64,000 nucleotides of DNA from Cordylochernes scorpioides (Eukaryota; Arthropoda; Arachnida; Pseudoscorpiones; Chernetidae). Numbering within the stretch: the stretch's first letter is position 1; each line of letters opens with the position of its first letter. Shown in pieces: positions 15,891 through 60,330 of the stretch. Location of the stretch: positions 23,191,583-23,255,582 of the forward strand of contig CP092882.1 of NCBI GenBank assembly GCA_030710605.1. The letters run 5' to 3'. The position numbers and the translations under genes were made by a program. The notes beneath the pieces are model-generated. The model did not search any database. It saw only the letters and a program-made list of their open reading frames with translations, and was not told the DNA's origin.

Positions 15891-16224
15891 TAATATATAG
15901 CGTTTGTGAGAGGATCAACTTCATTCTTGGAGGACAACACACATTTATATAAAATGAAAGGATTCAAGCACGAATGTTTTTTTAATTCATAAAACAAACC
16001 TCTACTATCCTTACTGCGATGAAATAATATATTGGGAGGGCTTGGCTCATCAGTAGTGAACCCTCCCAACGGTTTCGCCAATTTAAACCACCAGATCGCT
16101 TCTTAGAGCTCTAATACTGTATTGGACGATTCTGCTTATATACGCAGCACTGAAGGGTGGAATCTCAGAAATGGGTTTCAAGAAAACTATGAACATAAGC
16201 TTATAGGACAGTACAGAATTACAT
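15891..16224 (-). mobile_element. motif-bearing repeat, minus copy
   Basis: Contains the motif at 16032-16081 and the usual neighbours ACTATCCTTACTGCGATG and GCTTCTTAGAGCTCTAATAC. Continues into CTTTCAGAAATGG-like flank shared with 17880-17990. Confidence 0.65.
16032..16081 (-). ncRNA. pseudoknot motif, repeat copy with 9-bp helix B
   Basis: Minus strand: TTGGC, GAAA, CCG, TTGGGAGGG, TTCACTA, CTGATGA, GCCAA, G, CCCTCCCAA. Helix B is extended to 9 bp because a T replaces the usual C on one side and an A is present on the other. Confidence 0.6.
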
Positions 16225-17329: not shown

Positions 17330-17480
17330 CCTGCCATTTATATTCAGAAATGGAAGCTTTAAAACACGAATATTTCTTTTTAAAGTCGCAGTAAAGACAG
17401 TAGAAGCTTGTTTTATATTTAAAAATAAACACCCGTGCTTTGGTGCTTCCATTTTTTTTATATATGGATGGCAGGTTATA
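17330..17480. repeat. short inverted repeat
   Basis: TGGAAGCTTTAAAACACG and CGTGCTTTGGTGCTTCCA face each other around a block (GCAGTAAAGACAGTAGAAGC) of the motif-bearing repeat. Confidence 0.5.
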
Positions 17481-17925
17481 GCTTTATAGTTACTTATATC
17501 TAACTATTGAACTTATTGTTTGTGGAAGAGCATTGCTCGATGCAAATATTCATGTAATTCTACTATCCTAAAAGATTATGTCCATAGTTTGCTTGAAAAC
17601 CATTTCTAAGATTCCACCCTTCATTGCAGCTTTATAGTTACTTATATCTAACTATTGAACTTATTGTGTGTGGAAGAGCATTGCTCGATACAAATATTCA
17701 TGTAATTCTACGGTCCTAGAAGATTATGTCCGTAGTTTTCTTGAAAACAATTTCTAAGATTCCACCCTTCATTGCAGCTTTATAGTTACTTATATCTAAC
17801 TATTGAACTTATTGTTTGCGGAAGAGCATTGCTCGATACAAATATTCATGTAATTCTACTATCCTAAAAGCTTATGTCCCTAGTTTGCTTATAAAACATT
17901 TCTAAGATTCCACCCTTCATTGCAG
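17481..17925 (+). repeat. 148-bp tandem repeat, three units
   Basis: GCTTTATAGTTACTTATATC recurs at 17481, 17629 and 17777, exactly 148 apart. Each unit includes AAGAGCATTGCTCGAT, TTCATGTAATTCTAC and TTCTAAGATTCCACCC. The unit is part of the left flank of the motif-bearing repeat; one diverged unit is at 55530-55650. A local triplication. Confidence 0.85.
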
Positions 17926-18275
17926 CATATATAAGCAGATTCGTCCAATACAGTATTAGAGCTCTAAGAAGCGGTCTGGTGGATTAAATTGGTGAAATCG
18001 CTGGGAGGGTTCACCACTGATAAGCCAAGCCCTACCAATATTTTTCATCTCAGTAAATACAGTTGAAAAGTTTGTTTTATATTTAAAAATAAACATTCGT
18101 GTTTTAATGTTTCCATTTCTTAAAATAGATATTTCTCTAGTAATTTATGACTATACAATAACTTTTAGGAAACTGTATTGAGGGCTGAAGACTTTTTTAG
18201 TGGAAAAGTTCAGCGAATATGTAAAGTAGTTTCGCTAGAATTGATTAAAATTTGGTTAAAGTTTACTTCAGAACT
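17926..18275 (+). mobile_element. motif-bearing repeat, uninterrupted copy
   Basis: The longest unbroken copy. It runs through TCGTCCAATACAGTATTAGA, the motif (17989-18037), TTTGTTTTATATTTAAAAAT and TTCGCTAGAATTG. It is the reference showing where the LINE (14930) and the Jockey element (55673) inserted. Confidence 0.75.
17989..18037 (+). ncRNA. pseudoknot motif, slightly degenerate repeat copy
   Basis: TTGGT, GAAA, TCGC, TGGGAGGG, TTCACCA, CTGATAA, GCCAA, G, CCCTACCA. One wobble in A, one mismatch in B and a G-to-A change in the CTGATGA box: an ageing copy. Confidence 0.45.
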
Positions 18276-33022: not shown

Positions 33023-33362
33023 TGTTACATCATGATTAATGGCGTATTTCTTATATTAGTTTTAATATATTTGAAATTTAAATTATATATTTATTTATTT
33101 TTATATAAAATATTCTATGATATTTATTTAAAACAGATTATTAATTTATCATCATTTGTATTTAGGTACACTGTGACTTCACTGCTCTCTTTGATGTGAG
33201 AAAATAAATAAAGGATTCTGGTGGCTACTTAAAGAAGACTTATCTCGTTATTCCCTTTTATAAATTTCTAGGATGGTTGAAACACGCTCTGGTAAGATGC
33301 AGGACCCAGCACAGGAGAGAATCCAGGCTGAAGAGTCTGCCAAGCCGCAACCTGGTGCAACA
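33023..33362 (+). repeat. 5' LTR, 340 bp
   Basis: Begins TGTTACATCATG and ends GGTGCAACA. Contains AAATAAATAAAGG (about 33204), a probable polyadenylation region. Unusually, the gag start codon (33273) lies inside it. Confidence 0.93.
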
Positions 33363-34421
33363 ATTGGTAGAGATGCTAGTTCCGACCCAGTTGTCCTGAA
33401 TCCCAACATCGACATCCCCAAGTATGATGGAACGGAAGACCCTCGCCCATGGATTGAATCTCTTGAAGAAATTGGCTTCTTGTACCATTGGGCAGACTAC
33501 ATTATCTCTCGTTATGCCGCCATGAACATGACGGGAAGCGCTAAAACCTGGTTGAATTTACACAAAGCTAGTTTCACGAGCTGGGAAAATATTAAAATCC
33601 GCCTCATTCAGGATTTTTCTTTGGACGCGAATAAAGAAGAACTTAGAATGAAGCTCAACAGAATGCAACACTGGAATGAACCAGCAATCAGGTTCGCGGA
33701 AGACATTCTAGTGTTGTGCAACAAGGTTGACCCCGCAATGGAAGAAGAAACAAAAATTGAACATGTTATTGGAGGACTGAAAAAAGAGTACTCATTCGCG
33801 CTCTACCTGAACCCTCCTAAAACGACCGATGACCTTCTTGTCGTGTGCAAGAAAATGGATTATTTTGAAAAGAAGTATCGGGAACGTGTGGAGAAATCCA
33901 GAAACCTATATAACGGTCCACGCTATTCTAGACCCCAACAACAATCGAGGTACGTGCCGCCGACTGCCGCACGAAACTACCAGACCACTTCCAGGTCCCA
34001 AGCCCCTGTTTCCAATAATTACAAGAACGACTCCCCTCCTACCCCCAGACAGTATCGAAACAACTTTCCCCAGCCCTCTACCCCTAGACGTCCTTATAAT
34101 CCTAACTTTGTGCCGAAACCAAACCTTCAGAGAAACACTTACAATAAAAGCCAAGAAGTGAGCAAAAATAGGACGGAAGATGGAAGACCAATCTGCTTTA
34201 AATGTAACAAGCCAGGGCACGTGGCCCGTTATTGTAGGGTCAAGTTTATAAGAATCCTAGAAGAGGATCCAGCAGATACCCAAGAGAAGGTCGAAGAAAA
34301 ATGCCAAATGAATGAAACATCAGAGAAATCAGGACCTCGGCTTTATGCTGATGTATGTCATAGCACACAGACAAATATTCCTACCCGGAATAGATATTCC
34401 GTGTTGGAAGATTTAAACTAA
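33273..34421 (+). CDS. gag: Gag polyprotein of Gypsy element
   Basis: 382 codons from the first ATG, which lies 90 bases inside the 5' LTR. The frame runs through the LTR end and the PBS. A retrotransposon-gag capsid domain is recognisable at about residues 55-200 (WADYIISRYAAMNMTGSAKT, FTSWENIKIRLIQDFS). Then comes a Pro/Arg/Asn/Gln-rich RNA-binding stretch (about 210-295) and one zinc knuckle CFKCNKPGHVARYC (CX2CX4HX4C). Gag would package the element RNA in cytoplasmic particles. The last codons are GAT TTA AAC TAA, part of a frameshift signal. Intact. Confidence 0.9.
   Translation: MVETRSGKMQDPAQERIQAEESAKPQPGATIGRDASSDPVVLNPNIDIPKYDGTEDPRPWIESLEEIGFLYHWADYIISRYAAMNMTGSAKTWLNLHKASFTSWENIKIRLIQDFSLDANKEELRMKLNRMQHWNEPAIRFAEDILVLCNKVDPAMEEETKIEHVIGGLKKEYSFALYLNPPKTTDDLLVVCKKMDYFEKKYRERVEKSRNLYNGPRYSRPQQQSRYVPPTAARNYQTTSRSQAPVSNNYKNDSPPTPRQYRNNFPQPSTPRRPYNPNFVPKPNLQRNTYNKSQEVSKNRTEDGRPICFKCNKPGHVARYCRVKFIRILEEDPADTQEKVEEKCQMNETSEKSGPRLYADVCHSTQTNIPTRNRYSVLEDLN
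33365..33382 (+). other. primer binding site
   Basis: TGGTAGAGATGCTAGTTC starts two bases after the LTR end. TGG complements the CCA end of a tRNA, as usual for Gypsy elements; which tRNA cannot be decided here. It lies within the gag reading frame. Confidence 0.65.
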
Positions 34422-36199
34422 GCGTCGCGCCTGAATCTGTCAATCAAAGCAAGTCGACCATAAACGGAATCAAGAAGTTGGACCCTAAATACAAATTAAA
34501 AATTAATGTGGACAAGATAGGGACTTTTGAAGCTTTGGTTGATACAGGTGCTGACCTCTCAGTGGTCGACCTCAGAACGGCCCTCGATACAGGCCATGGT
34601 ATAAGTAAACTCGCAAAAATTTGTGCAGGACCCGATGGAAAAAAATTGGACATGGTAGGAAGTATATTTTTAAATATAAAAATTGATGACGAAACATTAT
34701 CACACAACTTTGTGATATTGAAAACGCATTTACGGACATTAATTCTTGGGAGAGATTTCCTTAAGAAAATGAACGCAAAAATAGATTGTAAGCAAGAAAC
34801 TATAAAATATGATTTGACGAATAATCATGACGAAATCAATTTTGAAATGTTGAAAATAAAGAGTGCCAAGGATTCCATTGTACCGGAATGTTCCATGAAA
34901 TTGATCAAGGCATTGGTAGAAACAGAGGATGGAGAATATATTATCGAAGAGAGCAGCAAAATGTTTCAAACAAATGGACTTCGTCTAGCAAGAAGCTTGA
35001 TCAATGTTATAAATAGGGAAACACACATCTGGATAACTAATCCGTATCCTCGACCGTTAAAAATAATGAAAAACCAAACATTGGCTTTTGGAAGTAGTCC
35101 AGCGAAAATAAATGTGAGTCGAGAAAGAGAGGTAGAAAAGAACGAAGAACCTAGATTCCAAATAAACGAAAATCTTTCACCAAAGGAACAGAAGGAGTTA
35201 AAACAAGTTTTAGAAAGGTATGGAGATCTTTTTTCATCGAGATTAGGGAGAACCAATTTGGCAAAACATCGGATAGACACAGAAGACGCGAAGCCAATTA
35301 AACACAAGCCTTACCGGGTAAGTGCTAAAGAACGAGATATTATAAAAGAGCAAATTGACGAGATGCTTACAGAAGGCATAATTAGGCCATCTTCTAGCCC
35401 CTGGTCTTTTCCAGTAATATTGGTCAAGAAGCGAGATGGTAAATACAGATTTTGTGTGGACTACAGAAAACTGAATAATGTGACAGTAAAAGATGTCTAT
35501 CCGATCCCTAGAATAGACGAAGTTATGGATACTCTCCAAGGATCTACACACTTCTCAGCAATAGACCTCAGATCTGGATATTGGCAAGTTGAAGTCGAAG
35601 AAAGAGACAAAGAGAAAACAGCTTTCACTACAGCGCATGGATTATATGAATTCAACGTGATGCCTTTTGGACTTTGTAACGCGCCTGCTACCTTTGAGAG
35701 AAATATGGAGAATATGCTTGGAAATCTGAGATGGCAAATTTGTTTGTGTTATCTGGATGATGTTATCATATATAGCCCGGATTTTCCAACGCACCTCAAA
35801 AGACTTGAAGCTGTTTTTAGATGTTTTCGTGAATCTAATTTAAGGTTAAACGACAAAAAATGCCGATTTGCTTTTGAAGAATTGGAGATTCTCGGCTATA
35901 TAACGAGCAAACATGGTATAAAACCCGCGGAACATAACATCAAAGCTGTCAGAAATTTTCCTCGACCCAAAAAGGTCAAAGAAGTACAATCCTTTTTGGG
36001 AATGTGTTCATATTATAGAAAATTTATCAAAGACTTTTCAAAAATTGCTGACCCTTTGACCAACCTTATAAAAAAAAAGTGTATCATTTACCTGGACAGA
36101 AAGACAAGAGGAAGCGTTTCAAACCCTAAAAACAGCACTATTAAGTCCACCAATTTTAGGTCACTTCAATCCAAATGCACCTACTTATGTTCATACTGA
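34394..36199 (+). CDS. pol: Pol: protease and reverse transcriptase (first open segment)
   Basis: Open in the -1 frame from 34394. There is no ATG at the start, as expected for Gag-Pol made by frameshifting. Aspartic protease: ALVDTGADLSVVD, then LILGRDFL. Reverse transcriptase: FPVILVKKRDGKYRF, then SAIDLRSGYWQVEV (motif A), MPFGLCNAPATFER and CYLDDVIIYS (catalytic YLDD). The connection domain starts with SFLGMCSYYRKFIKDF. After the A run at about 36069-36077 the frame turns to nonsense and stops at 36199, while the correct reading continues in another frame. All catalytic residues are present. Confidence 0.9.
   Translation: MFRVGRFKLSVAPESVNQSKSTINGIKKLDPKYKLKINVDKIGTFEALVDTGADLSVVDLRTALDTGHGISKLAKICAGPDGKKLDMVGSIFLNIKIDDETLSHNFVILKTHLRTLILGRDFLKKMNAKIDCKQETIKYDLTNNHDEINFEMLKIKSAKDSIVPECSMKLIKALVETEDGEYIIEESSKMFQTNGLRLARSLINVINRETHIWITNPYPRPLKIMKNQTLAFGSSPAKINVSREREVEKNEEPRFQINENLSPKEQKELKQVLERYGDLFSSRLGRTNLAKHRIDTEDAKPIKHKPYRVSAKERDIIKEQIDEMLTEGIIRPSSSPWSFPVILVKKRDGKYRFCVDYRKLNNVTVKDVYPIPRIDEVMDTLQGSTHFSAIDLRSGYWQVEVEERDKEKTAFTTAHGLYEFNVMPFGLCNAPATFERNMENMLGNLRWQICLCYLDDVIIYSPDFPTHLKRLEAVFRCFRESNLRLNDKKCRFAFEELEILGYITSKHGIKPAEHNIKAVRNFPRPKKVKEVQSFLGMCSYYRKFIKDFSKIADPLTNLIKKKCIIYLDRKTRGSVSNPKNSTIKSTNFRSLQSKCTYLCSY
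34412..34418 (+). promoter_or_regulatory. -1 ribosomal frameshift site TTTAAAC
   Basis: T TTA AAC in the gag frame, directly followed by the gag stop TAA, is a perfect X XXY YYZ slippery heptamer. The pol frame is -1 relative to gag and opens at 34394, so the overlap is 34394-34421. Slippage here would give a Gag-Pol fusion. No strong downstream stem is obvious to me. Confidence 0.75.
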
Positions 36200-37886
36200 T
36201 GCGTCCAACATCGGCATAGGTGCAACACTTGTCCAAGACATCGGTGGTGAAGAGAAGGTGATCTCATATTTGAGTCGTACCCTAAGTAAAGCGGAGCAAA
36301 ATTATTCAACCACTGAAAAAGAATGTCTGGCCGTTGTCTGGTCAATGTCAAAATTACGACCCTACCTTTATGGAAGACACTTTAAAATAGTAACAGACCA
36401 TCACGCCTTATGCTGGCTCAAAAACTTGAAGGATCCAACAGGTCGATTGGCAAGATGGGCATTGAAAATTCAAGAATATGACTTCGATATAATACATAAA
36501 TCGGGAAAGAAGCATCTGGACGCCGATGGCTTATCTAGGGGGCCCTTACCAGAAACTGATTGGGATGAGGATTTTGAAAGGCTTTTTTTAAATCAAATAA
36601 CAGACGAAGAGGATAAATTTATCGAAAGTGTTAAGAAAAACCTTAATGGAAGCAGGCGATCAATTGCGCAAAACTTTAAAGAAGAAGATGGATGCCTCTT
36701 TAAGAAAAACCCGAACCCTGAAGGCAGGGCGTGGTTGCTTGTGGTTCCAGAGAATAAAAAGAGAGAAATTATGAAAGAATATCACAATCATATGTCGAAT
36801 GGCCATCTGGGTGTCGCCAGAACCATGTACCGAATAAAGAGTAAATACTTTTGGCCATCCATGCTAAAGGATGTCTCAGAATTCGTTAGGACGTGTCACC
36901 TTTGCCAAAGTAGGAAAGGCTCAAACCAATTACCTTCTGGACTACTACAGCCCATCCCCCCAGCCAACTTTCCTTTCGAAAGAATTGGAATTGACTTTGT
37001 TGGTCCACTACCATCTACGAAAAACAGGAAAAAATGGATAATCGTGCTGTCGGACTACTACACTAGATATGCAGAAACAAGAGCAGTCTCGGAAGCAACA
37101 GTGAAAGAAGTTTCTAAATTTCTAGTAGAGGATATTTTTCTTCGGCACGGAGCCCCACAATATCTTATTAGTGACAGAGGCTCTCAATTTACCAGTAATT
37201 TAATGAAAGAGGTGATGAAAACGTGCAAGATTAAACATTGCTTCACAACGAGCTATCATCCCCAGACTAATGGATTGACAGAGCGGTTAAATAGAACATT
37301 GATCAATATGCTCAGTATGTATGTGAACACTGATCAGAAAAATTGGGACGAAATACTCCCATTCATCACTCACGCTTACAATACTACAATTCAGGAAACC
37401 ACAGGATATTCTCCCTTTTTCCTGATGTTTGGAAGAGAACCCACGTCTCTTTTGGACGACAGGAATATCTCGGTGGACATTGACAAAGATGATTATGATG
37501 AATACATAAAACATCACTTAGACAAAATAAACAGAACAAGAAAATTAGTTATTAACAACACAATAAAGACTCAAGAAAGAATGAAAAAGAACTATGACAA
37601 GAAACACATGGAAAGAAGCTACGAACCAGGAGAATTAGTAGCAGTTTGGACACCAATTAGGAAAATAGGAAAGTGTGAGAAACTACTGAGAAAATATTTT
37701 GGCCCATATAGAATATTAAAGAAGCTGTCCAACGTAAATTACTTAATTGAACCAAAAGATAATCCTGGCCAAGACCCATTGATTGTCCATGTCTCAAGAA
37801 TCAAACCCTATTTTGAAAGAATTGATGAGGTCAATCACGAGGACGTGACGACCTCTGGAGAGGGGGAAGTGTTACATCATGATTAA
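36085..37886 (+). CDS. pol: Pol: RNase H and integrase (second open segment)
   Basis: Continues pol after the homopolymer frame change; the first Met of the open frame is at 36258. RNase H: YVHTDASNIGIGATL, TEKECLAVVWS, VTDHHALCWL and HLDADGLSR. Integrase: zinc region with HNHMSNGHLGVA and CHLCQSRK; DDE core Asp in IGIDFVGPLP, Asp in ISDRGSQFTS, Glu in NGLTERLNRT. The C-terminal part (GPYRILKKLSNVNYLIE) resembles the GPY/F module. The frame ends at the PPT, and its last codons overlap the 3' LTR start. Intact from 36085 on. Confidence 0.9.
37857..37869 (+). other. polypurine tract
   Basis: GGAGAGGGGGAAG immediately before the 3' LTR, the expected plus-strand primer site. Confidence 0.85.

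Positions 37887-41867: not shown

Positions 41868-41870
<3 letters not shown>
41426..41870. other. AT-rich, no gene
   Basis: Nothing recognised; leads into the (TA)n tract. Confidence 0.3.

Positions 41871-41918
<48 letters not shown>
41871..41918. repeat. (TA)24 microsatellite, left target flank
   Basis: 48 bases of TA directly abutting the pseudo-LTR. The other end of the Naiad pair also abuts (TA)n (52580-52621). Confidence 0.95.
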
Positions 41919-41920
<2 letters not shown>

Positions 41921-43141
41921 ATAAAAGTTGATAATTATTTTTGTGTTTAAGTTAGATGAGATTAAAAAGTTCTTTATATGTATTATATTTATATCTTATT
42001 AAGGAGAGAAAAATGTAATAAAAGTAATTATATGTTAGAATAATATGTTTTTATTTTAGATAGAAAAAAAAAAAAAAATTGAAAAATAAAAAGAAAATTT
42101 AACAAGAAAAGAAGATTTAACAACGTAACGTCTTTTAGCATCGGCTTTTACCCGTCATTTAGACATACTCTTAAAATAAATAGGAATAAAGAAGAGATTT
42201 ATAATGATTATATATTTATTTTTTAGTAAAAGAGAGGAAAGAGATAAAGAAAGAACCATACACTTTTATTTCAAACAGGTAGAGAATTGAAAGGTTGTTA
42301 GTATTTTTTTTGGTTAATTAATAGTTTTTGTAATTTTTTTATATAATTTTTTTTTTTTCCTATATAATTTTAGATTTTTTTTTTTCCTAAGAGTAAGAAT
42401 AATATGAAATAATGTTTTTGCCTAGTTAAGGATAGATAAACATATTTTAAATCTTTGTTGCCTATTAGAAATTATTTTTTGGAACCCTAATGGTAGACCA
42501 GGACATTACACAAAAGGAGATTTGGAAAATCTATTGGAGAGAGAAATCTGTGGTACCAGGGCTCTTCAGATGAAAATACCACAACCCATTTCACCCTTAC
42601 TTCATTATGGATTGATTTCTCTTCGACCATTAAACTGTATAATTAAATTAATATTAGATATCATAGAAGGAGGTTGTTTACTTACTTATTCAAAGTGGCG
42701 TCTGCCGCTCCCTCGAGACAGCGCACATGTGTGGATGTAACATCTGTCTGTCAGGGACCCTCGACACTGTTCTAAAAGTAACCTTCCCTTTTTTAGGAAA
42801 TCTTATTTTTAAAATTGTTAGAAGTTAGAAAAGCTGTCAGAAAAGAATCATTAGAAATTTTAAAGATTGTGAAAATATGTATTAAAATTTTGTTTTCATT
42901 GATATAAGTTACATTTTTATTAAAATTATAAATTAATTGAATAATAAAACATTTATTATGCTTCAAATTCATTTATATTTGTTTTCCAGTTCCCTCCCAC
43001 AGTAACTGGAGATCAAATTGAATGAATTTAATGCTTTATAATCGTTATCATATAATTAATATATTTAAAGTCATAGGAAATATATTCAGTAATTCTATCA
43101 TTTGTTTTAGTATAAGAGTAGAATATAAGTTGTTGGTTAGA
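41919..43141 (-). repeat. pseudo-LTR and 3' UTR of minus-strand Naiad element
   Basis: Nearly identical to 46222-47085 (same orientation) and to the reverse of 47084-48090 and 51410-52390. It follows the pseudogene 43142-45619 on the minus strand. It contains a pseudoknot motif at 42549-42597. Confidence 0.85.
42549..42597 (-). ncRNA. pseudoknot motif (Naiad family 2, copy 1)
   Basis: Minus strand: AGGGT, GAAA, TGGGT, TGTGGTA, TTTTCAT, CTGAAGA, GCCCT, GG, TACCACA. Same as the copies at 46853, 47394 and 51708. Confidence 0.6.
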
Positions 43142-45619
43142 TTAATTGGAGAAGTTTGAAGTTTCAAATTTATAATTATATTTATTATTGCTTAGGTATT
43201 TGTGTATTGACAGCCTATTGTAAAACTTTACTGTTTTGTATTTAAAACCATTGTTTAAATACTCTTTATTAAGATTTTTAATGTCTTTAATAAAGTTTGT
43301 TTTAATGTTGTTGATTCTATAAAATCTTAAAAATTGACCAAAATATATGCCTTTGCAGCAATTTGATGATATGTTGGAATTGACATTACAGAATATAATA
43401 ATTAAAATTATAACAATTTCTTTTGTCATATGTTCCAATTGACTTGTTTGCAAGGTTTATATTTAAGTCTAAAAAGTTAACCTCCTTGTTATTAGTTATC
43501 TTTTCATTATTTTTAAGTTTCAAATATTTAGGGTATATTTTGTAAATGACATTATTGAATTTTGGGTTATTCAAGATAATGATGTCATCTACATAGCGGA
43601 ACATATGCCAATTTACATCATTCTGTAGGAAGAACTCTCTTTCATACCAAAAAAGTAATAAGTTTGCTAGTAGAGGACTGGATGAAGTTCCCATTGGAAC
43701 ACCTTTAGATTGAATGTATATTTTGTTTTTAAAATTAATATAATTAAAGTTTAAGAAGGTTTCAAGTAATGTTTTTGCTGTTTTGTTATCTAATTTAAAT
43801 GTTTTGTATTTGTTGTGAATAATTTGAATATGGAATGTTTTATCATTAATGAATTCATTTATTAAGCTGTGTATTTTATTATTAAGGTCTTCTAAACGTA
43901 TGTTAGAGTAAAGATCTTCAAAATCAAATGTATGAACTGTATTGATCTTTTGTAGGTTATTTGTTAGGAAGTTAATGATTTTTTTATTAGAATCTATGAA
44001 TTTATAATTATATTTGTTAGTTATTTTATTTATTATGAATTGAAGTGTTGAAGCTAGTCTTAAATCTGTTTTTTTATGACTGAGTTTATTCCTGATGTGA
44101 TTGTTCTAAATGAGATTGGTGTTTTATGTAATTTAGGAATAATATAAAATTTCGGTATGTTTGTGTTTTTGTTGTAATTAATGATTTTTAGTGTGTTTTC
44201 TACATTTTTAATATCTTTTTTTATTTTAGTTTCAGTTGTTTTTATGAAAGTGTATTTACTGTTGTTATTAATTTCATTTTTTAGAAGGTCATGATATAAG
44301 TTTTTACATATAATGGATAAATTATTTGAACATTTATCTATTGGACATATGATAAAATCTTTTTGTAAGTTTTCAAAATTGTCTTTTAAGGAATTAATTT
44401 CCGATTCATTAGGGATTGTGTATTTTAGTGTGTTGTTATAATAGTTTTTTATTTCTTTACTTAATTTATATTTCCATTCTAGGAAAGTAAATTCAGGAAT
44501 TCTGTGTTTTATACTAGTTTTATTAATGAATATATCGATGTCTTTTAATATAGATTTAATTGTATTATTGAAATTGTGTTTGATCTGAGGTATATATTTA
44601 TATCCTCTATTTAAAATGTTTTGGAGTTTTGGTTCCAAAAAAGAATAATCGCTAGTTAAAATATGACCTGTGAATTTATATTTATCTAGAACATTGTGGC
44701 AATTACATTTAGATTTTTTAAAATTTGTTAGATTATTAATAAACGGGTTATAATTGCATAATATACTGCCAATATTCTTGTTATATTTCAAGGTAGTTTT
44801 AAAATTTAAACCTTTTATAGGAAATAAACTGTTAATAGATTGGTCATTAAATATATCATTAAATTTGAAATGATCAAATAATTTGTTATTGAATTTAATA
44901 ATAATGTTAATTTGGTTATTATTTTGTTTAATTTTTCTGTATTTGAAGATGTCGTTTGTGATATCTGTTAATCTATTAGAAAGATTGTGAATTTTAATGT
45001 GTTCTACAAGTTTTATAAGTTTGCTATTATTTAATTTGAATAATGTTTTAATAAAATTTTCAATGAAATTTTTTGTGTACATTTTGTTTGTGTCTAATAA
45101 GTTATTAAAGTTTATGAAGCCTAATTTGTTGGTAGTTTTACCTCTGGTTTTGACTGAGTTATTATTAGAGTTATGTTTTTTGTATTTATTACTAATTTCA
45201 TAGATTGATATTTCAGATGGTTGTGGTGTGTATGTGTGGTTAAGTTCGTCGTTAAGTCCATAAGGGTATAAAGTGTTGTGTTGATAAATGTAATTGTTTT
45301 CTAATAATAATCGTTGTTTTTTGTCCTGACAAATGTCAAGTATTTCTATCATGTAATTGTTAAAGGTATGTATTTTATTGTGTTGTTTCATGTATGTGTT
45401 ACCAATTGATTTTTTCGAGTGGTTTCTATGTAAATTTATTCTTATGTTTAAAGGATTGCAAGTTTGTCCTATATATGAAAGTTGACAAGTTTGGCAAGTT
45501 AATTTATAAATAGTGTTTTCTATCTTACAACTAGGTGTTTGAAATGTGTCATGGTTCTTGAAAGTTGGGCAAGTTTGACATTCCTTATTTAGACAATTTT
45601 TAGCGAGTTTAGAGAACAT
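43142..45619 (-). pseudogene. Naiad-type GIY-YIG/RT protein, two frameshifts
   Basis: Minus-strand twin of the 826-aa protein at 48683-51163, nearly identical. The first 519 codons (45619-44060) are intact: GIY-YIG nuclease with IYKLTC and SYIGQT, then the KCNC motif. One base is lost near 44075-44085, just after SVIK, and about two bases near 43395-43405, after NCYNF. The catalytic YVDDII (frame 43694-43386) is therefore out of frame with the nuclease. Substitutions elsewhere are few (e.g. Leu for Trp in FKTTxKYN). A recently dead copy. Confidence 0.92.
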
Positions 45620-46221
45620 AGAAGGGGTGCTAACCCAAAAATGTTTGTAGTTTTTTTTAAGTTTTTTAGTTTGTTATTCTTTAAAACGTTTTTTTTTTTA
45701 TTAAAAATTATTTGCTATATATGTTAGTTGAAATAGTTAATAATTTGTTTGATAATAAATATAGATTGTTGTATGTATATCTGTAGTAATTGTAAGAATA
45801 ACTAATAAAAAACATCTTTAAACTGACTAAAACACTGAGAAAAAAAAAATTCTGTGAGTATTATGTGATTATAATTACTTTTATATATATATATTATTTT
45901 AATCTTTCCCCTAAGATATAAATTATACCTTTTGGATATGTAAATAACAGAGTTTGTCTATTAAAAATTGAAATCTTAAATATAACTTAAATTAAGTTAT
46001 TATCATAGAGCAAGCTCGTATGAATTTATATGAAATGTAAATAATAAAGTTTATCAAATAAAATTTTAAATCTTAAATATAATTTAAATTAAGTTGATAT
46101 TATAGAGTGAGTTAAGATGGATTTATATATTGATATAACTATATTTAAAACTTTTAATAATAGTAATATTTATATATAAAAATGAAATTCTATTAGATTA
46201 GCAAGCTAAATCTAAATTAAT
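45620..46221 (-). other. 5' untranslated region of minus Naiad element
   Basis: AT-rich leader matching the leader 48090-48682 of the plus element in reverse. It includes GGGGTGCTAACCCAAAAATG next to the start codon. Confidence 0.75.
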
Positions 46222-47085
46222 TATATAAGATAAAAGTTGATAATTATTTTTGTGTTTAAGTTAGATGAGATTAAAAAGTTCTTTATATGTATTATATTTA
46301 TATCTTATTAAGGAGAGAAAAATGTAATAAAAGTAATTATATGTTAGAATAATATGTTTTTATTTTAGATAGAAAAAAAAATTTTTGAAAAATAAAAAGA
46401 AAATTTAACAAGAAAAGAAGATTTAACAACGTAACGTCTTTTAGCATCGGCTTTTACCCGTCATTTAGACATACTCTTAAAATAAATAGGAATAAAGAAG
46501 AGATTTATAATGATTATATATTTATTTTTTAGTAAAAGAGAGGAAAGAGATAAAGAAAGAACCATACACTTTTATTTCAAACAGGTAGAGAATTGAAAGG
46601 TTGTTAGTATTTTTTTTAGTTAATTAATAGTTTTTGTAATTTTTTTATATAATTTTTTTTTTCCTATATAATTTTAGATTTTTTTTTTTCCTAAGAGTAA
46701 GAATAATATGAAATAATGTTTTTGCCTAGTTAAGGATAGATAAACATATTTTAAATCTTTGTTGCCTATTAGAAATTATTTTTTGGAACCCTAATGGTAG
46801 ACCAGGACATTACACAAAAGGAGATTTGGAAAATCTATTGGAGAGAGAAATCTGTGGTACCAGGGCTCTTCAGATGAAAATACCACAACCCATTTCACCC
46901 TTACTTCATTATGGATTGATTTCTCTTCGACCATTAAACTGTATAATTAAATTAATATTAGATATCATAGAAGGAGGTTGTTTACTTACTTATTTAAAGT
47001 GGCGTCTGCCGCTCCCTCGAGACAGCGCACATGTGTGGATGTAACATCTGTCTGTCAGGGACCCTCGACACTGTTCTAAAAGTAA
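46222..47085 (-). repeat. 5' pseudo-LTR of minus Naiad element
   Basis: Same sequence as 41919-42780. It meets the inverted pseudo-LTR of the plus element at about 47085, giving a head-to-head junction. Confidence 0.85.
46853..46901 (-). ncRNA. pseudoknot motif (Naiad family 2, copy 2)
   Basis: Identical helices and boxes to the copy at 42549-42597. Confidence 0.6.
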
Positions 47086-48275
47086 ATTTTAATACATTCA
47101 AAATTTTAATACATATTTTCACAATCTTTAAAATTTCTAATGATTCTTTTCTGACAGCTTTTCTAACTTCTAACAATTTTAAAAATAAGATTTCCTAGAA
47201 AAGGGAAGGTTACTTTTAGAACAGTGTCGAGGGTCCCTGACAGACAGATGTTACATCCACACATGTGCGCTGTCTCGAGGGAGCGGCAGACGCCACTTTG
47301 AATAAGTAAGTAAACAACCTCCTTCTATGATATCTAATATTAATTTAATTATACAGTTTAATGGTCGAAGAGAAATCAATCCATAATGAAGTAAGGGTGA
47401 AATGGGTTGTGGTATTTTCATCTGAAGAGCCCTGGTACCACAGATTTCTCTCTCCAATAGATTTTCCAAATCTCCTTTTGTGTAATGTCCTGGTCTACCA
47501 TTAGGGTTCCAAAAAATAATTTCTAATAGGCAACAAAGATTTAAAATATGTTTATCTATCCTTAACTAGGCAAAAACATTATTTCATATTATTCTTACTC
47601 TTAGGAAAAAAAAAAAAATCTAAAATTATATAGGAAAAAAAAAATTATATAAAAAAATTACAAAAACTATTAATTAACTAAAAAAAATACTAACAACCTC
47701 TCAATTCTCTACCTGTTTGAAATAAAAGTGTATGGTTCTTTCTTTATCTCTTTCCTCTCTTTTACTAAAAAATAAATATATAATCATTATAAATCTCTTC
47801 TTTATTCCTATTTATTTTAAGAGTATGTCTAAATGACGGGTAAAAGCCGATGCTAAAAGACGTTACGTTGTTAAATCTTCTTTTCTTGTTAAATTTTCTT
47901 TTTATTTTTCAAAATTTTTTTTTTTCTATCTAAAATAAAAACATATTATTCTAACATATAATTACTTTTATTACATTTTTCTCTCCTTAATAAGATATAA
48001 ATATAATACATATAAAGAACTTTTTAATCTCATCTAACTTAAACACAAAAATAATTATCAACTTTTATCTTATATAATTAATTTAGATTTAGCTTGCTAA
48101 TCTAATAGAATTTCATTTTTATATATAAATATTACTATTATTAAAAGTTTTAAATATAGTTATATCAATATATAAATCCATCTTAACTCACTCTATAATA
48201 TCAACTTAATTTAAATTATATTTAAGATTTAAAATTTTATTTGATAAACTTTATTATTTACATTTCATATAAATT
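47084..48275 (+). repeat. 5' pseudo-LTR of plus Naiad element, about 1.19 kb
   Basis: Runs from TTTTAATACATATTTTCAC to TTACATTTCAT and recurs in the same orientation at 51410-52580. Direct pseudo-LTRs flanking one ORF are the known Penelope-like layout. Confidence 0.85.
47394..47442 (+). ncRNA. pseudoknot motif (Naiad family 2, copy 3)
   Basis: AGGGT (A), GAAA, TGGGT, TGTGGTA (B), TTTTCAT, CTGAAGA, GCCCT (A'), GG, TACCACA (B'). Confidence 0.6.
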
Positions 48276-48682
48276 CATACGAGCTTGCTCTATGATAATA
48301 ACTTAATTTAAGTTATATTTAAGATTTCAATTTTTAATAGACAAACTCTGTTATTTACATATCCAAAAGGTATAATTTATATCTTAGGGAAAGATTAAAA
48401 TATATATATATATATAAAAGTAATTATAATCACATAATACTCACAGAAATATTTTTTTTTCTCAGTGTTTTAGTCAGTTTAAAGATGTTTTTTATTAGTT
48501 ATTCTTACAATTACTACAGATATACATACAACAATCTATATTTATTATCAAACAAATTATTAACTATTTCAACTAACATATATAGCAAATAATTTTTAAT
48601 AAAAAAAAAAAAACGTTTTAAAGAATAACAAACTAAAAAACTTAAAAAAAACTACAAACATTTTTGGGTTAGCACCCCTTCT

Positions 48683-51163
48683 ATGTTCTCTAAACTCGCT
48701 AAAAATTGTCTAAATAAGAAATGTCAAACTTGCCCAACTTTCAAGAACCATGACACATTTCAAACACCTAGTTGTAAGATAGAAAACACTATTTATAAAT
48801 TAACTTGCCAAACTTGTCAACTTTCATATATAGGACAAACTTGCAATCCTTTAAACATAAGAATAAATTTACATAGAAACCACTCGAAAAAATCAATTGG
48901 TAACACATACATGAAACAACACAATAAAATACATACCTTTAACAATTACATGATAGAAATACTTGACATTTGTCAAGACAAAAAACAACGATTATTATTA
49001 GAAAACAATTACATTTATCAACACAACACTTTATACCCTTATGGACTTAACGACGAACTTAACCACACATACACACCACAACCATCTGAAATATCAATCT
49101 ATGAAATTAGTAATAAATACAAAAAACATAACTCTAATAATAACTCAGTCAAAACCAGAGGTAAAACTACCAACAAATTAGGCTTCATAAACTTTAATAA
49201 CTTATTAGACACAAACAAAATGTACACAAAAAATTTCATTGAAAATTTTATTAAAACATTATTCAAATTAAATAATAGCAAACTTATAAAACTTGTAGAA
49301 CACATTAAAATTCACAATCTTTCTAATAGATTAACAGATATCACAAACGACATCTTCAAATACAGAAAAATTAAACAAAATAATAACCAAATTAACATTA
49401 TTATTAAATTCAATAACAAATTATTTGATCATTTCAAATTTAATGATATATTTAATGACCAATCTATTAACAGTTTATTTCCTATAAAAGGTTTAAATTT
49501 TAAAACTACCTGGAAATATAACAAGAATATTGGCAGTATATTATGCAATTATAACCCGTTTATTAATAATCTAACAAATTTTAAAAAATCTAAATGTAAT
49601 TGCCACAATGTTCTAGATAAATATAAATTCACAGGACATATTTTAACTAGCGATTATTCTTTTTTGGAACCAAAACTCCAAAACATTTTAAATAGAGGAT
49701 ATAAATATATACCTCAGATCAAACACAATTTCAATAATACAATTAAATCTATATTAAAAGAGATCGATATATTCATTAATAAAACTAGTATAAAACACAG
49801 AATTCCTGAATTTACTTTCCTAGAATGGAAATATAAATTAAGTAAAGAAATAAAAAACTATTATAACAACACACTAAAATACACAATCCCTAATGAATCG
49901 GAAATTAATTCCTTAAAAGACAATTTTGAAAATTTACAAAAAGATTTTATCATATGTCCAATAGATAAATGTTCAAATAATTTATCTATTTTATGTAAAA
50001 ACTTATATCATGACCTTCTAAAAAATGAAATTAATAACAACAGTAAATACACTTTCATAAAAACAACTGAAACTAAAATCAAAAAAGATATTAAAAATGT
50101 AGAAAACACACTAAAAATCATTAATTACAACAAAAACACAAACATACCGAAATTTTATATTATTCCTAAATTACATAAAACACCAATCTCATTTAGAACA
50201 ATCACATCAGGAATAAACTCAGTCATAAAAAACATAGATTTAAGACTAGCTTCAACACTTCAATTCATAATAAATAAAATAACTAACAAACATAATTATA
50301 AATTCATAGATTCTAATAAAAAAATCATTAACTTCCTAACAAATAACCTACAAAAGATCAATACAGTTCATACATTTGATTTTGAAGATCTTTACTCTAA
50401 CATACGTTTAGAAGACCTTAATAATAAAATACACAGCTTAATAAATGAATTCATTAATGATAAAACATTCCATATTCAAATTATTCACAACAAATACAAA
50501 ACATTTAAATTAGATAACAAAACAGCAAAAACATTACTTGAAACCTTCTTAAACTTTAATTATATTAATTTTAAAAACAAAATATACATTCAATCTAAAG
50601 GTGTTCCAATGGGAACTTCATCCAGTCCTCTACTAGCAAACTTATTACTTTTTTGGTATGAAAGAGAGTTCTTCCTACAGAATGATGTAAATTGGCATAT
50701 GTTCCGCTATGTAGATGACATCATTATCTTGAATAACCCAAAATTCAATAATGTCATTTACAAAATATACCCTAAATATTTGAAACTTAAAAATAATGAA
50801 AAGATAACTAATAACAAGGAGGTTAACTTTTTAGACTTAAATATAAACCTTGCAAACAAGTCAATTGGAACATATGACAAAAGAAATTGTTATAATTTTA
50901 AAATTATTAAATTCTGTAATGTCAATTCCAACATATCATCAAATTGCTGCAAAGGCATATATTTTGGTCAATTTTTAAGATTTTATAGAATCAACAACAT
51001 TAAAACAAACTTTATTAAAGACATTAAAAATCTTAATAAAGAGTATTTAAACAATGGTTTTAAATACAAAACAGTAAAGTTTTACAATAGGCTGTCAATA
51101 CACAAATACCTAAGCAATAATAAATATAATTATAAATTTGAAACTTCAAACTTCTCCAATTAA
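48683..51163 (+). CDS. Naiad-type Penelope-like protein: GIY-YIG endonuclease + RT, intact
   Basis: 826 codons, no stop. Residues 9-31 hold a Cys cluster (CLNKKCQTC). Residues about 36-125 form a GIY-YIG nuclease: IYKLTCQTC, SYIGQT (49-53), Arg60, His64 and Glu107 in LLLENNYIY. A CxC motif (KCNC, 304-307) lies in the linker. RT follows: PKLHK (495-499), motif A TFDFEDLY (564-571), motif B GVPMGTSSSPLLANL (640-654), and catalytic YVDD (676-679). N-terminal GIY-YIG, a CxC linker and C-terminal RT is the permuted order described for Naiad elements; ordinary Penelope elements have the nuclease at the C-terminus. It would nick chromosomal targets and copy element RNA, and RTs of this group are relatives of telomerase RT. 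There is no in-frame UGA, so the Cys residues are ordinary, unlike the selenoprotein Naiads reported in spiders. Likely still active. Confidence 0.93.
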   Translation: MFSKLAKNCLNKKCQTCPTFKNHDTFQTPSCKIENTIYKLTCQTCQLSYIGQTCNPLNIRINLHRNHSKKSIGNTYMKQHNKIHTFNNYMIEILDICQDKKQRLLLENNYIYQHNTLYPYGLNDELNHTYTPQPSEISIYEISNKYKKHNSNNNSVKTRGKTTNKLGFINFNNLLDTNKMYTKNFIENFIKTLFKLNNSKLIKLVEHIKIHNLSNRLTDITNDIFKYRKIKQNNNQINIIIKFNNKLFDHFKFNDIFNDQSINSLFPIKGLNFKTTWKYNKNIGSILCNYNPFINNLTNFKKSKCNCHNVLDKYKFTGHILTSDYSFLEPKLQNILNRGYKYIPQIKHNFNNTIKSILKEIDIFINKTSIKHRIPEFTFLEWKYKLSKEIKNYYNNTLKYTIPNESEINSLKDNFENLQKDFIICPIDKCSNNLSILCKNLYHDLLKNEINNNSKYTFIKTTETKIKKDIKNVENTLKIINYNKNTNIPKFYIIPKLHKTPISFRTITSGINSVIKNIDLRLASTLQFIINKITNKHNYKFIDSNKKIINFLTNNLQKINTVHTFDFEDLYSNIRLEDLNNKIHSLINEFINDKTFHIQIIHNKYKTFKLDNKTAKTLLETFLNFNYINFKNKIYIQSKGVPMGTSSSPLLANLLLFWYEREFFLQNDVNWHMFRYVDDIIILNNPKFNNVIYKIYPKYLKLKNNEKITNNKEVNFLDLNINLANKSIGTYDKRNCYNFKIIKFCNVNSNISSNCCKGIYFGQFLRFYRINNIKTNFIKDIKNLNKEYLNNGFKYKTVKFYNRLSIHKYLSNNKYNYKFETSNFSN

Positions 51164-52574
51164 TCTAACCAACAACTTATATTCTACTCTTATACTAAAA
51201 CAAATGATAGAATTACTGAATATATTTCCTATGACTTTAAATATATTAATTATATGATAACGATTATAAAGCATTAAATTCATTCAATTTGATCTCCAGT
51301 TACTGTGGGAGGGAACTGGAAAACAAATATAAATGAATTTGAAGCATAATAAATGTTTTATTATTCAATTAATTTATAATTTTAATAAAAATGTAACTTA
51401 TATCAATGAAAACAAAATTTTAATACATATTTTCACAATCTTTAAAATTTCTAATGATTCTTTTCTGACAGCTTTTCTAACTTCTAACAATTTTAAAAAT
51501 AAGATTTCCTAGAAAAGGGAAGGTTACTTTTAGAACAGTGTCGAGGGTCCCTGACAGACAGATGTTACATCCACACATGTGCGCTGTCTCGAGGGAGCGG
51601 CAGACGCCACTTTGAATAAGTAAGTAAACAACCTCCTTCTATGATATCTAATATTAATTTAATTATACAGTTTAATGGTCGAAGAGAAATCAATCCATAA
51701 TGAAGTAAGGGTGAAATGGGTTGTGGTATTTTCATCTGAAGAGCCCTGGTACCACAGATTTCTCTCTCCAATAGATTTTCCAAATCTCCTTTTGTGTAAT
51801 GTCCTGGTCTACCATTAGGGTTCCAAAAAATAATTTCTAATAGGCAACAAAGATTTAAAATATGTTTATCTATCCTTAACTAGGCAAAAACATTATTTCA
51901 TATTATTCTTACTCTTAGGAAAAAAAAAAAAAATCTAAAATTATATAGGAAAAAAAAAATTATATAAAAAAATTACAAAAACTATTAATTAACTAAAAAA
52001 ATACTAACAACCTTTCAATTCTCTACCTGTTTGAAATAAAAGTGTATGGTTCTTTCTTTATCTCTTTCCTCTCTTTTACTAAAAAATAAATATATAATCA
52101 TTATAAATCTCTTCTTTATTCCTATTTATTTTAAGAGTATGTCTAAATGACGGGTAAAAGCCGATGCTAAAAGACGTTACGTTGTTAAATCTTCTTTTCT
52201 TGTTAAATTTTCTTTTTATTTTTCAAAATTTTTTTTTTCTATCTAAAATAAAAACATATTATTCTAACATATAATTACTTTTATTACATATTTCTCTCCT
52301 TAATAAGATATAAATATAATACATATAAAGAACTTTTTAATCTCATCTAACTTAAACACAAAAATAATTATCAACTTTTATCTTATATAATTAATTTAGA
52401 TTTAGCTTGCTAATCTAATAGAATTTCATTTTTATATATAAATATTACTATTATTAAAAGTTTTAAATATAGTTATATCAATATATAAATCCATCTTAAC
52501 TCACTCTATAATATCAACTTAATTTAAATTATATTTAAGATTTAAAATTTTATTTGATAAACTTTATTATTTAC

Positions 52575-52580
<6 letters not shown>
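51164..52580 (+). repeat. 3' UTR and 3' pseudo-LTR of plus Naiad element
   Basis: A short UTR with GTTACTGTGGGAGGGAACTG, then the pseudo-LTR (from about 51410) identical in order to 47084-48275. It ends at TTACATTTCA against (TA)n. Confidence 0.85.
51708..51756 (+). ncRNA. pseudoknot motif (Naiad family 2, copy 4)
   Basis: Identical to the copy at 47394-47442. Helix A AGGGT/GCCCT (one G-T pair), helix B TGTGGTA/TACCACA. Confidence 0.6.

Positions 52581-52621
<41 letters not shown>
52581..52621. repeat. (TA)20 microsatellite, right target flank
   Basis: Counterpart of 41871-41918; supports insertion of the Naiad pair into a TA microsatellite. Confidence 0.93.
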
Positions 52622-57278: not shown

Positions 57279-58031
57279 ATGAATTACAAAAATATGTATA
57301 AAAATAGCCTTCGAATCGTTCACTGGAACGCGTGTAGTCTCCGAAACAAAAAACAACAATTCTCAGAATTCCTGAACGACCACGACATCGACATCGCACT
57401 AGTGTCAGAAACCTGGCTTAAGCCGTGCCATAAAATGAGGATTCAAAACTTCATCACCCTCCGCAACGACAGACTAACCGGACAAGGTGGTGGAACTGCC
57501 ATATTTATCTACAATAAGTACAGCCATGCACCTATTCATGCCACCACCTCAAGCCTGGAAACAACAGGAATTTCTATCAAAAACAAAAACGGGTTAAATA
57601 TGAACCTGTATTCGTGCTACAAACCACCAAACACCTATCTAGATCAAACCGATATCTATAACATTTTTTCAACGGACACACCGACCATTATAGCAGGGGA
57701 CCTAAACTGCAAACATCCTGCCTGGGGTTCCACCACCACTAACCCAAGCGGGAGAAGGCTCCAAAACGCAATCAACGTTATGGACCTAGATGTGAGCTAC
57801 CTCGACGAACCTACTAATGACTCACCTCCAGACATCATTGATATCGCCGTGCACAAAAACATCTCCCAAAGCGCATACTCTAAAGTCCTGCACGAACTAA
57901 CCTCTGACCATCTCCCAGTACTACTTGTGCTACAGGATTTCAAAATCTCCTACTTAAATACAAAAATAAAAATTACAGATTGGGCCCTTTTTTCAAGTAC
58001 AAAATGGAAATCGCTGAACCTCCTGAACTGA
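57279..58031 (+). pseudogene. Jockey ORF2: AP-type endonuclease
   Basis: 250 open codons. RIVHWNACSLRNK opens the fold. ALVSETWL gives the metal-binding Glu, AGDLNCKHPAWGS the Asp-Asn pair, PPDIIDIAVHK a structural Asp, and LTSDHLPVLL the catalytic Asp-His. All expected catalytic residues are present. The frame ends at 58031 before RT is reached, so the nuclease is separated from RT by stops in 58030-58570. Confidence 0.88.
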
Positions 58032-60074
58032 TCCTAGACACATATTTAAAAATAGACGAGGCCATTACACACATTTAAGACAAATGGTGCAAAATTTGAA
58101 AGATTCAACAAAATATAAGGACCGGGAACTAGAACGAAGATATCCACCTCACATTAAAGAAAAAATACGATCCACCAACAGACTAAGAAAAAAAAAAAGA
58201 AAAAAACCTGCGACCCCCGAGATAAATCAGCCTACATGACGGCCCGGAGAGAATCACAGAAACTTACAAGAGAGCACGATAACATCAGCTGGGACCACTT
58301 TATCGAAAACTTGAAAGTCACGGACCAAACCATATGGAAAGCCATCAAACGATTATCCAATTCTGAAAAACAAGAAATAACACTGAAGACAAACAATGGG
58401 CAGACACTAACCACAGAAGAAGCAGCTGAATCATTTGCCAACAACTATGAAAAACAGTTCACCCCCTATCCCTATACATCCCACTCCAAACCTACTCGTA
58501 CATACACCAAATGTGTGAATTCATACATGAAAAAAAAAAAAAAAAACAGGACTAGAACCAACAAACATTGGTGAAATATAGGCGATTATTGAACATATAC
58601 CAAATAAAAAAGTTCCCGGAATCGACGAATTACCTAATGAAGCTCTCAAACTGCTCCCTAATCACATACTAGCATCAATAACCGAAATATTTAACGCATC
58701 ACTGCAGCTTGCCCACTTCCCCGACAGATGGAAAACGTCCATTATTTGTCCCATACTTAAAAAAGGAAAATCCATGCATGAACCAACAAGCTACAGGCCC
58801 ATCTCACTGCTACCTGCCATCTCAAAACTATTCGAAAGAATTGTTTTAAGAAGACTTAAAAAATCCCTAGAAGAAAAGAATCCACTCAGACCTGAACAAT
58901 TTGGCTACCAACTCAAGCACTCAACATTGCACCAGCTAGTTGTTGTCACTGAAAAAATAAGAAAAGCCATGGACCTAGGACAAATAACAGGAGCCGTGTT
59001 CTTCGATATCTCCAAAGCATTCGATAAAGTCTGGCATGAGGCCCTTCTCTACAAAATGTGCAAAAAGCACCTTCCTGGAGACATCATAAAAATAACGTAA
59101 AACTTCTTAACGAATAGAACATTCAAGGCACGAGTCAAAGACGAACTGTCAACAGCTAGGAATATCCTTGCTGGGGTCCCTCAAGGATCAGTCACAGGAC
59201 CAACCTTATTTGACATATTTATAGACGACTTCCCCTGTATTGAAGACACCTCTTTACACCTATTTGCCGATGATACCGCCATTTTGGCCTCGACATACGA
59301 CTTCTACAGACTCCACATGAAGCTCCAAGAGGCCTGCATCTTTTCCACGCTCTGGTGTAAAGAATGGCGAGTCACAATGAACCCCCAAAAAAGTGAAGCA
59401 ATAATTTTCTCCAGAAAAAAAGACAAAATTAAGAAACCTTTAGACGAACTCTTCGTCTTCGAAGACAATATTAAATGGAAAGAGAACATTCGATACCTAG
59501 GGATGACCCTAGACGAGCACCTAACCTTCAAAAAACACACATCGAAAACAGAATTAATTTGGCGAAAGCAGCCCAACACCGATTATCCCTACTTCTAGGA
59601 CCGAAAAGCAAATTATCCCTTCATTGCAAAAGAACCATTTACACGTCAATAATAAGACCAATACTCATATACGGCCACCCCATTTTTATGACAGCACATA
59701 AGACCATCCTTAAAAAGTTAGAAGTCTTTGAAAATAAAATGATCAGAAAAATCATGTCTCCACCCTGGTTCGTTCGGAACGATCTAAATTTCGAAAACAT
59801 CAATGACTACATTATTAGACAATCATTTAAATTCTACGAAAAATCCGAAAAATTAGAAAATCCCACCTTTAAGGAAGCCACAAACTACAAATGCGGAAAA
59901 GGGAAAATAAGAAATTTAAAACCTAGACAAATTCTCCATCAATTAAGCCGAATGACGAAAAGTGGAAAAAGGAAAAAACAAACCCACCTTGAATATCAGA
60001 CAAGCCAGACAAAACCTTCTCAAGAACAATATCCCCAAGGACCTGAGAATCCGGACCCAACGACATCAATATAA
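58032..60074 (+). pseudogene. Jockey ORF2: linker, reverse transcriptase and C-terminus, broken
   Basis: A linker frame at 58236-58574 (LTTEEAAESFANNYEKQF) precedes the RT. RT starts SYRPISLLPAISKLFERI (58783), QFGYQLKHST and GAVFFDISKAFDKVWHEA (motif A). After a TAA at 59098 it continues with AGVPQGSVTGPTLF (motif B) and LHLFADDTAILAS (catalytic FADD, about 59258). The frame 59475-60074 gives the thumb and tail (GPKSKLSLHCKRTIYTSII, PILIYGHPIF). At least one stop and one frame change lie inside RT. The domain order fits the Jockey clade. Confidence 0.88.
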
Positions 60075-60188: not shown

Positions 60189-60330
60189 ATCCAATACAAT
60201 AGTAGAGCGGTCTAGAGATTAATTTGGCGAAACCGCTGAGAGGGTTCACTACTGATGAGCCAAGCCCTCTCATTCAATAACTCATATCATTGCAGTAAGG
60301 TCTGTAGAGATAATATTCGATGATATTTAA
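60189..60330 (+). mobile_element. motif-bearing repeat, right part
   Basis: Resumes with the duplicated ATCCAATACAA, TAGAGCGGTCTAGAGATTAA, then the motif and TCATTGCAGTAAGGTCTGTA. Confidence 0.75.
60224..60272 (+). ncRNA. pseudoknot motif, repeat copy with TTGGC/GCCAA
   Basis: TTGGC, GAAA, CCGC, TGAGAGGG, TTCACTA, CTGATGA, GCCAA, G, CCCTCTCA. Both helices perfect and different from 13951-13999 by compensated changes. Confidence 0.6.

Follow-up and report, generated by a model that had tools for sequence, protein, structure and literature searches.

A 64,000-nt window of the genome of the pseudoscorpion Cordylochernes scorpioides (contig CP092882.1, positions 23,191,583 to 23,255,582, forward strand) contains Naiad-type Penelope-like elements (PLEs), here named family 2, whose pseudo-LTRs (pLTRs) carry what is very probably a self-cleaving hammerhead ribozyme. 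The predicted ribozyme has the non-circularly permuted SGC order and occurs once per family 2 pLTR, on the sense strand. This kind of ribozyme is known; its Naiad-type carrier is apparently new. A preliminary description of the window had proposed a two-helix pseudoknot (helices A and B) in the pLTRs of two Naiad-type families, as an RNA element used instead of a canonical hammerhead. Both helices are real but make up only part of a five-helix fold, in which helix A is hammerhead stem II and helix B is an interaction helix between stems I and II. The element is not of a new kind, being a hammerhead in an order already published (PMC10085705). The preliminary description had overlooked stems I and III, the outer helix C, and a second repeat family with an SGC motif (family 3), and had not recognized the motif as a hammerhead.

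The CTGANGA and GAAA sequences were taken as the hammerhead boxes, which fixes the positions of the three stems. In the family 2 copy at 51684 to 51764 (plus strand, as are all positions in this paragraph), the whole motif, a type-SGC hammerhead with a closing helix C, opens with the 5' strand of helix C (GAGAAATC, 51684 to 51691), which pairs with its 3' strand GATTTCTC at 51757 to 51764. Block S follows, with the 3' strands of stem III (ATCCAT, 51693 to 51698) and stem I (ATGAAG, 51700 to 51705). Because a single A (position 17, 51699) separates these two stems in the substrate strand, the cleavage triplet is AUA (51697 to 51699), and by analogy with the SGC ribozymes of PMC10085705 position 17 is the predicted cleavage nucleotide, with the cut at 51699/51700. 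Block G provides the stem II 3' strand (AGGGT, 51708 to 51712); the GAAA box comes next (51713 to 51716), and its last A is the first base of the stem III 5' strand (ATGGGT, 51716 to 51721, pairing with 51693 to 51698). Beyond the 5' strand of helix B, the stem I-II interaction helix (TGTGGTA, 51722 to 51728), block C supplies the stem I 5' strand (TTTCAT, 51730 to 51735, pairing with 51700 to 51705) and, on the far side of the CTGAAGA catalytic box (51736 to 51742), the stem II 5' strand (GCCCT, 51743 to 51747). The 3' strand of helix B (TACCACA, 51750 to 51756) pairs with 51722 to 51728. The junction strands of the core run substrate, then GAAA, then CUGAnGA. Ordinary hammerheads instead show one of the rotations of CUGAnGA, GAAA, substrate. 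Family 2 has the complete hammerhead core, with both boxes and stems I, II, III, B, and C; the core-proximal pair of stem II is a G-U, and stem I is made mostly of A-U pairs.

Family 2 is a pair of near-identical PLEs in inverted orientation at about 41.9 to 52.6 kb, each with pLTR copies at both ends, and (AT)n microsatellites lie on the outer sides of the pair (41870 to 41917 and 52580 to 52621). The open reading frame (ORF) of the plus element (48629 to 51163, plus strand; 844 codons stop to stop, first ATG at 48683) encodes an N-terminal GIY-YIG domain followed by a reverse transcriptase (RT), while the near-identical inverted coding region (43386 to 45673, minus strand) consists of two overlapping open frames (43386 to 44105 and 44060 to 45673). 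The RT maps to residues 517 to 703 (E 2.4e-10). GIY-YIG was found at residues 54 to 134 above the Pfam cut-off (E 1.7e-6) when residues 1 to 174 were scanned alone, and was absent from the match list when the whole 844-aa protein was scanned, even with E up to 10. Between endonuclease and RT, a CxC motif was recognized by eye, as CNC in family 2 and as CxC in the aligned relatives P0001 to P0004. This arrangement of N-terminal GIY-YIG, CxC, and RT is reportedly the Naiad layout (Craig et al. 2021); the further features reported there for Naiads, pseudo-LTRs, tandem or inverted insertions, and microsatellite targets, are likewise present in family 2. Naiad elements are reportedly widespread in invertebrates and are said to have been described (Craig et al. 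2021) as being without canonical hammerheads, unlike other PLEs; the minimal type I hammerheads of PLEs are reportedly due to Cervera and de la Pena 2014 and Lunse et al. 2017.

A protein search that scored 7991 candidates returned seven distant relatives, which come without DNA flanks. No relative of the family 2 RT was found in viral or prokaryote contigs; alignment A1 as a query in viral contigs, alignment A2 in prokaryote contigs, and the relatives P0002 and P0001 in viral contigs gave none either. AlphaFold models the family 2 protein poorly (mean pLDDT, 52.6; pTM, 0.42).

The motif is present in all four family 2 pLTRs, the other three copies lying at 47370 to 47450 in the upstream pLTR of the plus element (plus strand; predicted cleavage, 47385/47386) and at 46845 to 46925 and 42541 to 42621 in the minus element (minus strand; predicted cleavage after 46910 and after 42606, respectively, in minus-strand reading). 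Over 87 bases covering the motif, the four copies do not differ, so that for covariation they amount to a single sequence. Family 1 (9 to 12 kb) is a truncated relative of family 2, of whose RT ORF only the C-terminal 319 aa are present (10062 to 11021, minus strand; 74% identical to family 2 over that part), and it carries a motif at 9434 to 9512 (minus strand; predicted cleavage after 9497, minus-strand reading). On the sense strand, the motif starts 521 nt after the RT ORF in family 2 (51163 to 51684) and 550 nt after it in family 1 (10062 to 9512). The preliminary description was right that both families keep the GAAA and CTGANGA boxes, and its helix sequences AGGGT/GCCCT and TGTGGTA/TACCACA were recovered at the positions given in four of four family 2 copies, as were GGGG/CCCC and GCTGGAA/TTCCAGC in family 1. 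The family 1 core has a defect in stem II, a U.U together with an extra U beside GAAA, and this motif is probably inactive or slow. Upstream of the motif, both Naiad families have a GC-rich segment (51524 to 51630, plus strand; about 9600 to 9690, minus strand) ending in GTAAGT/GTAGGT, by eye possibly a splice donor in the pLTR leader.

Base-pair changes between families 1 and 2 were counted on a structure-guided alignment. Among the 32 pairs compared, 21 are identical and 11 differ; 8 of the latter are doubly compensated, 2 are broken, and 1 is gapped. The compensated pairs are spread over all helices (one each in stems I and II, two in stem III, three in helix B, and one in helix C), and the broken ones in family 1 relative to family 2 lie in stem II and at the outer end of helix C. 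Helix B spans 7 bp, and its three differing pairs are all compensated (family 2 to family 1, U-A to G-C, G-C to C-G, and U-A to A-U), as had been claimed. An earlier alignment with helix B and stem III out of register, which gave four compensated, seven broken, one gapped, and one one-sided-but-paired change, was rejected, and the MAFFT alignment A3, which misplaces the GAAA box, was kept out of pair counting. The covariation sample comprises two distinct Naiad sequences and four family 3 copies, from one window in one species.

Family 3 is a dispersed repeat that shares the hammerhead core with the Naiad motif and has different stems; BLAST at E 1e-4 detected no similarity between it and the Naiad pLTR. 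We recognized no ORF belonging to it, and some copies form head-to-head inverted pairs; it may be a retrozyme-like element, a pLTR, or another kind of repeat. The type-SGC motif lies at 60206 to 60271 within the repeat copy at 60199 to 60275 (plus strand; box at 60252). Further copies lie at 13928 to 14003 (plus strand; box at 13979, score 19), at 16032 to 16108 (minus strand; box at 16053), where stems I and III are partly decayed, and at 17966 to 18041 (plus strand), where the box reads CTGATAA and the ribozyme is expected to be inactive; partial copies are found near 54937 (minus), 54950 (plus), 13843 (minus), 19663 (minus), and 14777 (plus). Copies that carry the family 3 boxes and the copy at 17966 to 18041 belong to this one repeat, and some copies are damaged. 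The core consists of GGCGAAACCGC, helix B GGGAGGG/CCCTCCC, and CACCACTGATGAGCC, with AGCGGTC-TGGTGGA upstream. In alignment A4, which excludes eight further rows that are truncated, deleted within the motif, or without it, 93.9% of the cells (25 pairs, four copies) are paired, compared with at most 57.1% when the partners are slid by one to three columns. Covariation is modest in these four sequences, one of them with a broken box: three pairs have changes in both partners, and 43 of 500 shuffles show at least as many. A nested fold recovers stem III plus helix B only at 60203 to 60276; it recovers helix B in the copies at 13930 and 16031 and gives a different fold at 17968.

Since one family 3 copy adjoins LINE-like ORFs (57279 to 60074, plus strand) on their 3' side, a link between the two was considered; it was dropped, the other copies lying elsewhere. 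The LINE-like element, named by eye, has endonuclease-type and RT ORFs in broken frames, and its RT has no relative in viral contigs. By eye, we also recognized a Gypsy-like LTR retroelement (33264 to 37886, plus strand), in which gag- and pol-like ORFs lie in different frames and overlap. Upstream of the 17966 copy, three 148-bp tandem units (17480 to 17926) run directly into TATATAAG at 17928 and look like a promoter-type array. Given the position of TATATAAG, we would guess that the family 3 ribozyme may stand at the start of a transcript. On the 3' side of the family 3 ribozyme, a sequence like CATYGCAGTAAGGACAGTAGAA may be part of a larger repeat, because it recurs without the ribozyme in the 17386, 38360, and 61188 regions.

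The alternative that fares best overlaps with our own explanation: the motif could be a genuine type-SGC hammerhead that is active only when bound by the protein of the element, or a relic, as was reported for the Anolis Poseidon hammerhead. We consider this unlikely, though it deserves serious weight. The core defects in family 1 and in the family 3 copy at 17966 would suit a relic, and a PLE hammerhead was not cut unless protein was added (PMC11167929). Family 2, on the other hand, retains all core residues and stems of 5 to 6 bp, unlike the minimal type I hammerheads described for PLEs in PMC7761336, and the SGC ribozymes assayed in PMC10085705 cut on their own, at 0.007 to 0.19 per min.

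Distinctly less probable is a template-recognition pseudoknot bound by the RT, which resembles or descends from a hammerhead and does not cut. The similar distance of the motif from the RT end in the two families is what such a structure would lead one to expect, and for a canonical PLE, the first 172 nt of the ORF have been hypothesized to hold a protein-binding motif (PMC11167929). RT binding does not predict, however, that GAAA, CTGANGA, and a UH cleavage triplet are conserved in hammerhead register, nor that the same core appears in family 3, a repeat without similarity to the Naiad pLTR. Of the two options left by the preliminary description, a ribozyme or an RT recognition structure, the first has good support from the hammerhead core, the stems, and the compensation between families, and we regard ribozyme identity as likely. 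The motif could additionally bind the RT, the two roles coexisting.

Because gap placement in an alignment is a choice, the helices were also evaluated with an alignment-free parser against shuffled and drift nulls. With the boxes kept, 0 of 2000 shuffles reach the observed helix total of either family. In the drift null, family 2 was mutated randomly with 22 substitutions and four one-base indels, again with the boxes kept, and 0 of 2000 versions reach the family 1 helix total of 32. Taken singly, helices B and C are unremarkable (helix B alone is reached by 40/2000 shuffles of family 2, 37/2000 of family 1, and 111/2000 drift versions, and helix C alone by 101/2000 drift versions); it is the full helix set that stands out. 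In both families, a nested free-energy fold, blind to hammerheads, yields a three-way junction of helix C, stem III, and helix B, and its two loops contain the strands needed for stems I and II. Folding energies are mildly better than those of shuffles (z of -1.28 and -2.28 for the two families, with 19/200 and 5/200 shuffles folding at least as well).

A strict SGC scan of the window with stems of at least 4 bp returned four matches, the family 2 copies, compared with none in 50 Markov windows. Scanning for all six block orders produced SGC matches only, at the same four copies, and 100 Markov windows (one strand each) had no match in any of the six orders. Both strict scans missed family 1 because of the extra U beside GAAA. 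Box-anchored scoring was anchored on CTGANGA and allows that bulge beside GAAA. Among the 32 CTGANGA boxes of the window, eight score 19 to 26 over stems I, II, III, and B, and a ninth scores 15; five of the eight are Naiad copies (24 to 26), and the remaining three are family 3 copies (19 to 23). DNA patterns searched in viral contigs (at least 120, 16, and 3 stretches) served as controls. Among 953 control boxes (139 viral loci among the matches listed; boxes fewer than 100 bases from the start or 50 from the end of a locus strand omitted), the best score is 19 and none reaches 20, so that seven of the eight window boxes beat every control and box 13979 (19) ties the best, under a scoring devised after the motif had been seen and with control loci mostly chosen by a box pattern. 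The SGC block order used in the scoring is one that was published independently. No pattern-matched viral stretch scores as an SGC hammerhead, the best of the boxes scored being the 19 just given. The pattern GAAATG..TTTT..CTGANGA, composed after the copies had been seen, matches five times in the window and never in 100 shuffles. It is very improbable that the motif resembles a hammerhead by chance or that helices B and C are inverted repeats at the DNA level, marking a transposon end: shuffles or drift reach helices B and C alone fairly often but not the full set, stems I, II, and III cross and so form no simple inverted repeat, and the strict scans, the box pattern, and the box-anchored controls all speak against it.

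Rfam gave no hammerhead match in the whole window at the gathering score, and no hammerhead family at 51640 to 51820 or 17930 to 18080 with E up to 10. The unusual order of the three parts could explain why ordinary ribozyme searches miss the hammerhead in Naiad elements.

If the motif is the hammerhead that we propose, helix C would close an RNA of two adjacent hairpins, one built on stem III and the other on helix B. Stems I and II would then join the two hairpin loops, AUGAAG-UA-AGGGU-GAA on the stem III side and UUUCAU-CUGAAGA-GCCCU on the helix B side, and this loop pairing would gather GAAA, CUGAAGA, and the AUA triplet into a standard hammerhead core. By analogy, we infer that family 2 RNA would then cleave itself behind the final A of AUA. 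The motif occurs in both pLTRs of every family 2 element, so two cuts, which in the plus element would fall at 47385 and 51699 and thus 4314 nt apart, might further release a unit-length RNA carrying the ORF. For a canonical PLE, hammerhead cleavage was seen only with added protein, hammerhead catalytic mutants still supported insertion in vitro, and the search of the same study for RNA-seq reads with an end at the cut site found none (PMC11167929); PMC7761336 describes the role of PLE hammerheads as unknown.

It has been suggested that canonical PLEs have type I retrozymes as partners. A broader proposal, which we put forward tentatively and regard as somewhat doubtful, is that Naiads in general kept the hammerhead as its SGC form, paired with RT-dependent SGC repeats like family 3, with helix C accommodating the zero linker between stem III and helix B. 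If true, there would be a second, parallel system of PLE, ribozyme, and retrozyme, built on a rearranged ribozyme. Such a hammerhead, invisible to nested models, would resolve the Naiad exception among PLEs and suggest that PLEs generally rely on a pLTR hammerhead in their life cycle, and non-circularly permuted ribozymes would gain a genomic home and a biological setting.

Among known ribozymes, the closest comparison is with type SGC, one of the natural non-circular hammerhead permutations, including the HRIMA-1 motif and SGC variants, described by Eckert, Friedrich, Weinberg and Weinberg (NAR 2023; PMC10085705). That set was drawn from metatranscriptome, metagenome, and RefSeq searches; type SGC self-cleaves in vitro, 583 examples are predicted, and compensatory rescue of each stem was demonstrated for one SGC ribozyme. 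The Naiad motif matches type SGC in the S-G-C block order, the hammerhead core residues, the crossing stems I, II, and III, the short I-II linker, and the helix that connects the other sides of stems I and II, which is helix B here. The linker between the 3' strands of stems I and II has 2 nt in family 2, whereas three are typical in PMC10085705. Families 1, 2, and 3 are all of the zero-linker sort, with stem III directly at the interaction helix, an arrangement called not obviously compatible with the known crystal structure in PMC10085705; in families 1 and 2, unlike type SGC as published, helix C is added, and III and B are connected through a three-way junction. The Naiad motif also differs in sitting in retroelement pLTRs. 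In the main text of PMC10085705, no retroelement is given as a carrier ("Penelope" and "retrotransposon" each appear a single time, among the references, and Naiad is absent), and the accessible portions of the openly licensed literature, including PMC11167929, PMC7761336, and PMC10941475, report no SGC hammerhead in a Naiad or any PLE. Sequences of the Naiad sort may already be among the 176 SGC variants of PMC10085705.

Family 3 resembles the non-LTR retrozymes of animals in consisting of dispersed repeats with hammerheads. As presented in PMC7761336, retrozymes have type I motifs around units of about 150 to 300 bp, whereas family 3 has the SGC order and some copies in inverted pairs. With the minimal type I hammerheads of canonical PLEs, family 2 shares a hammerhead located in the pLTR and repeated because the pLTR is repeated (PMC7761336, PMC11167929). 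Those hammerheads, as described in the same two sources, belong to type I in the circular order, have a stem III that is very short or absent, and may depend on dimers; the predicted family 2 ribozyme, in contrast, has the SGC order and a stem III of 5 to 6 bp and would be expected to function as a monomer.
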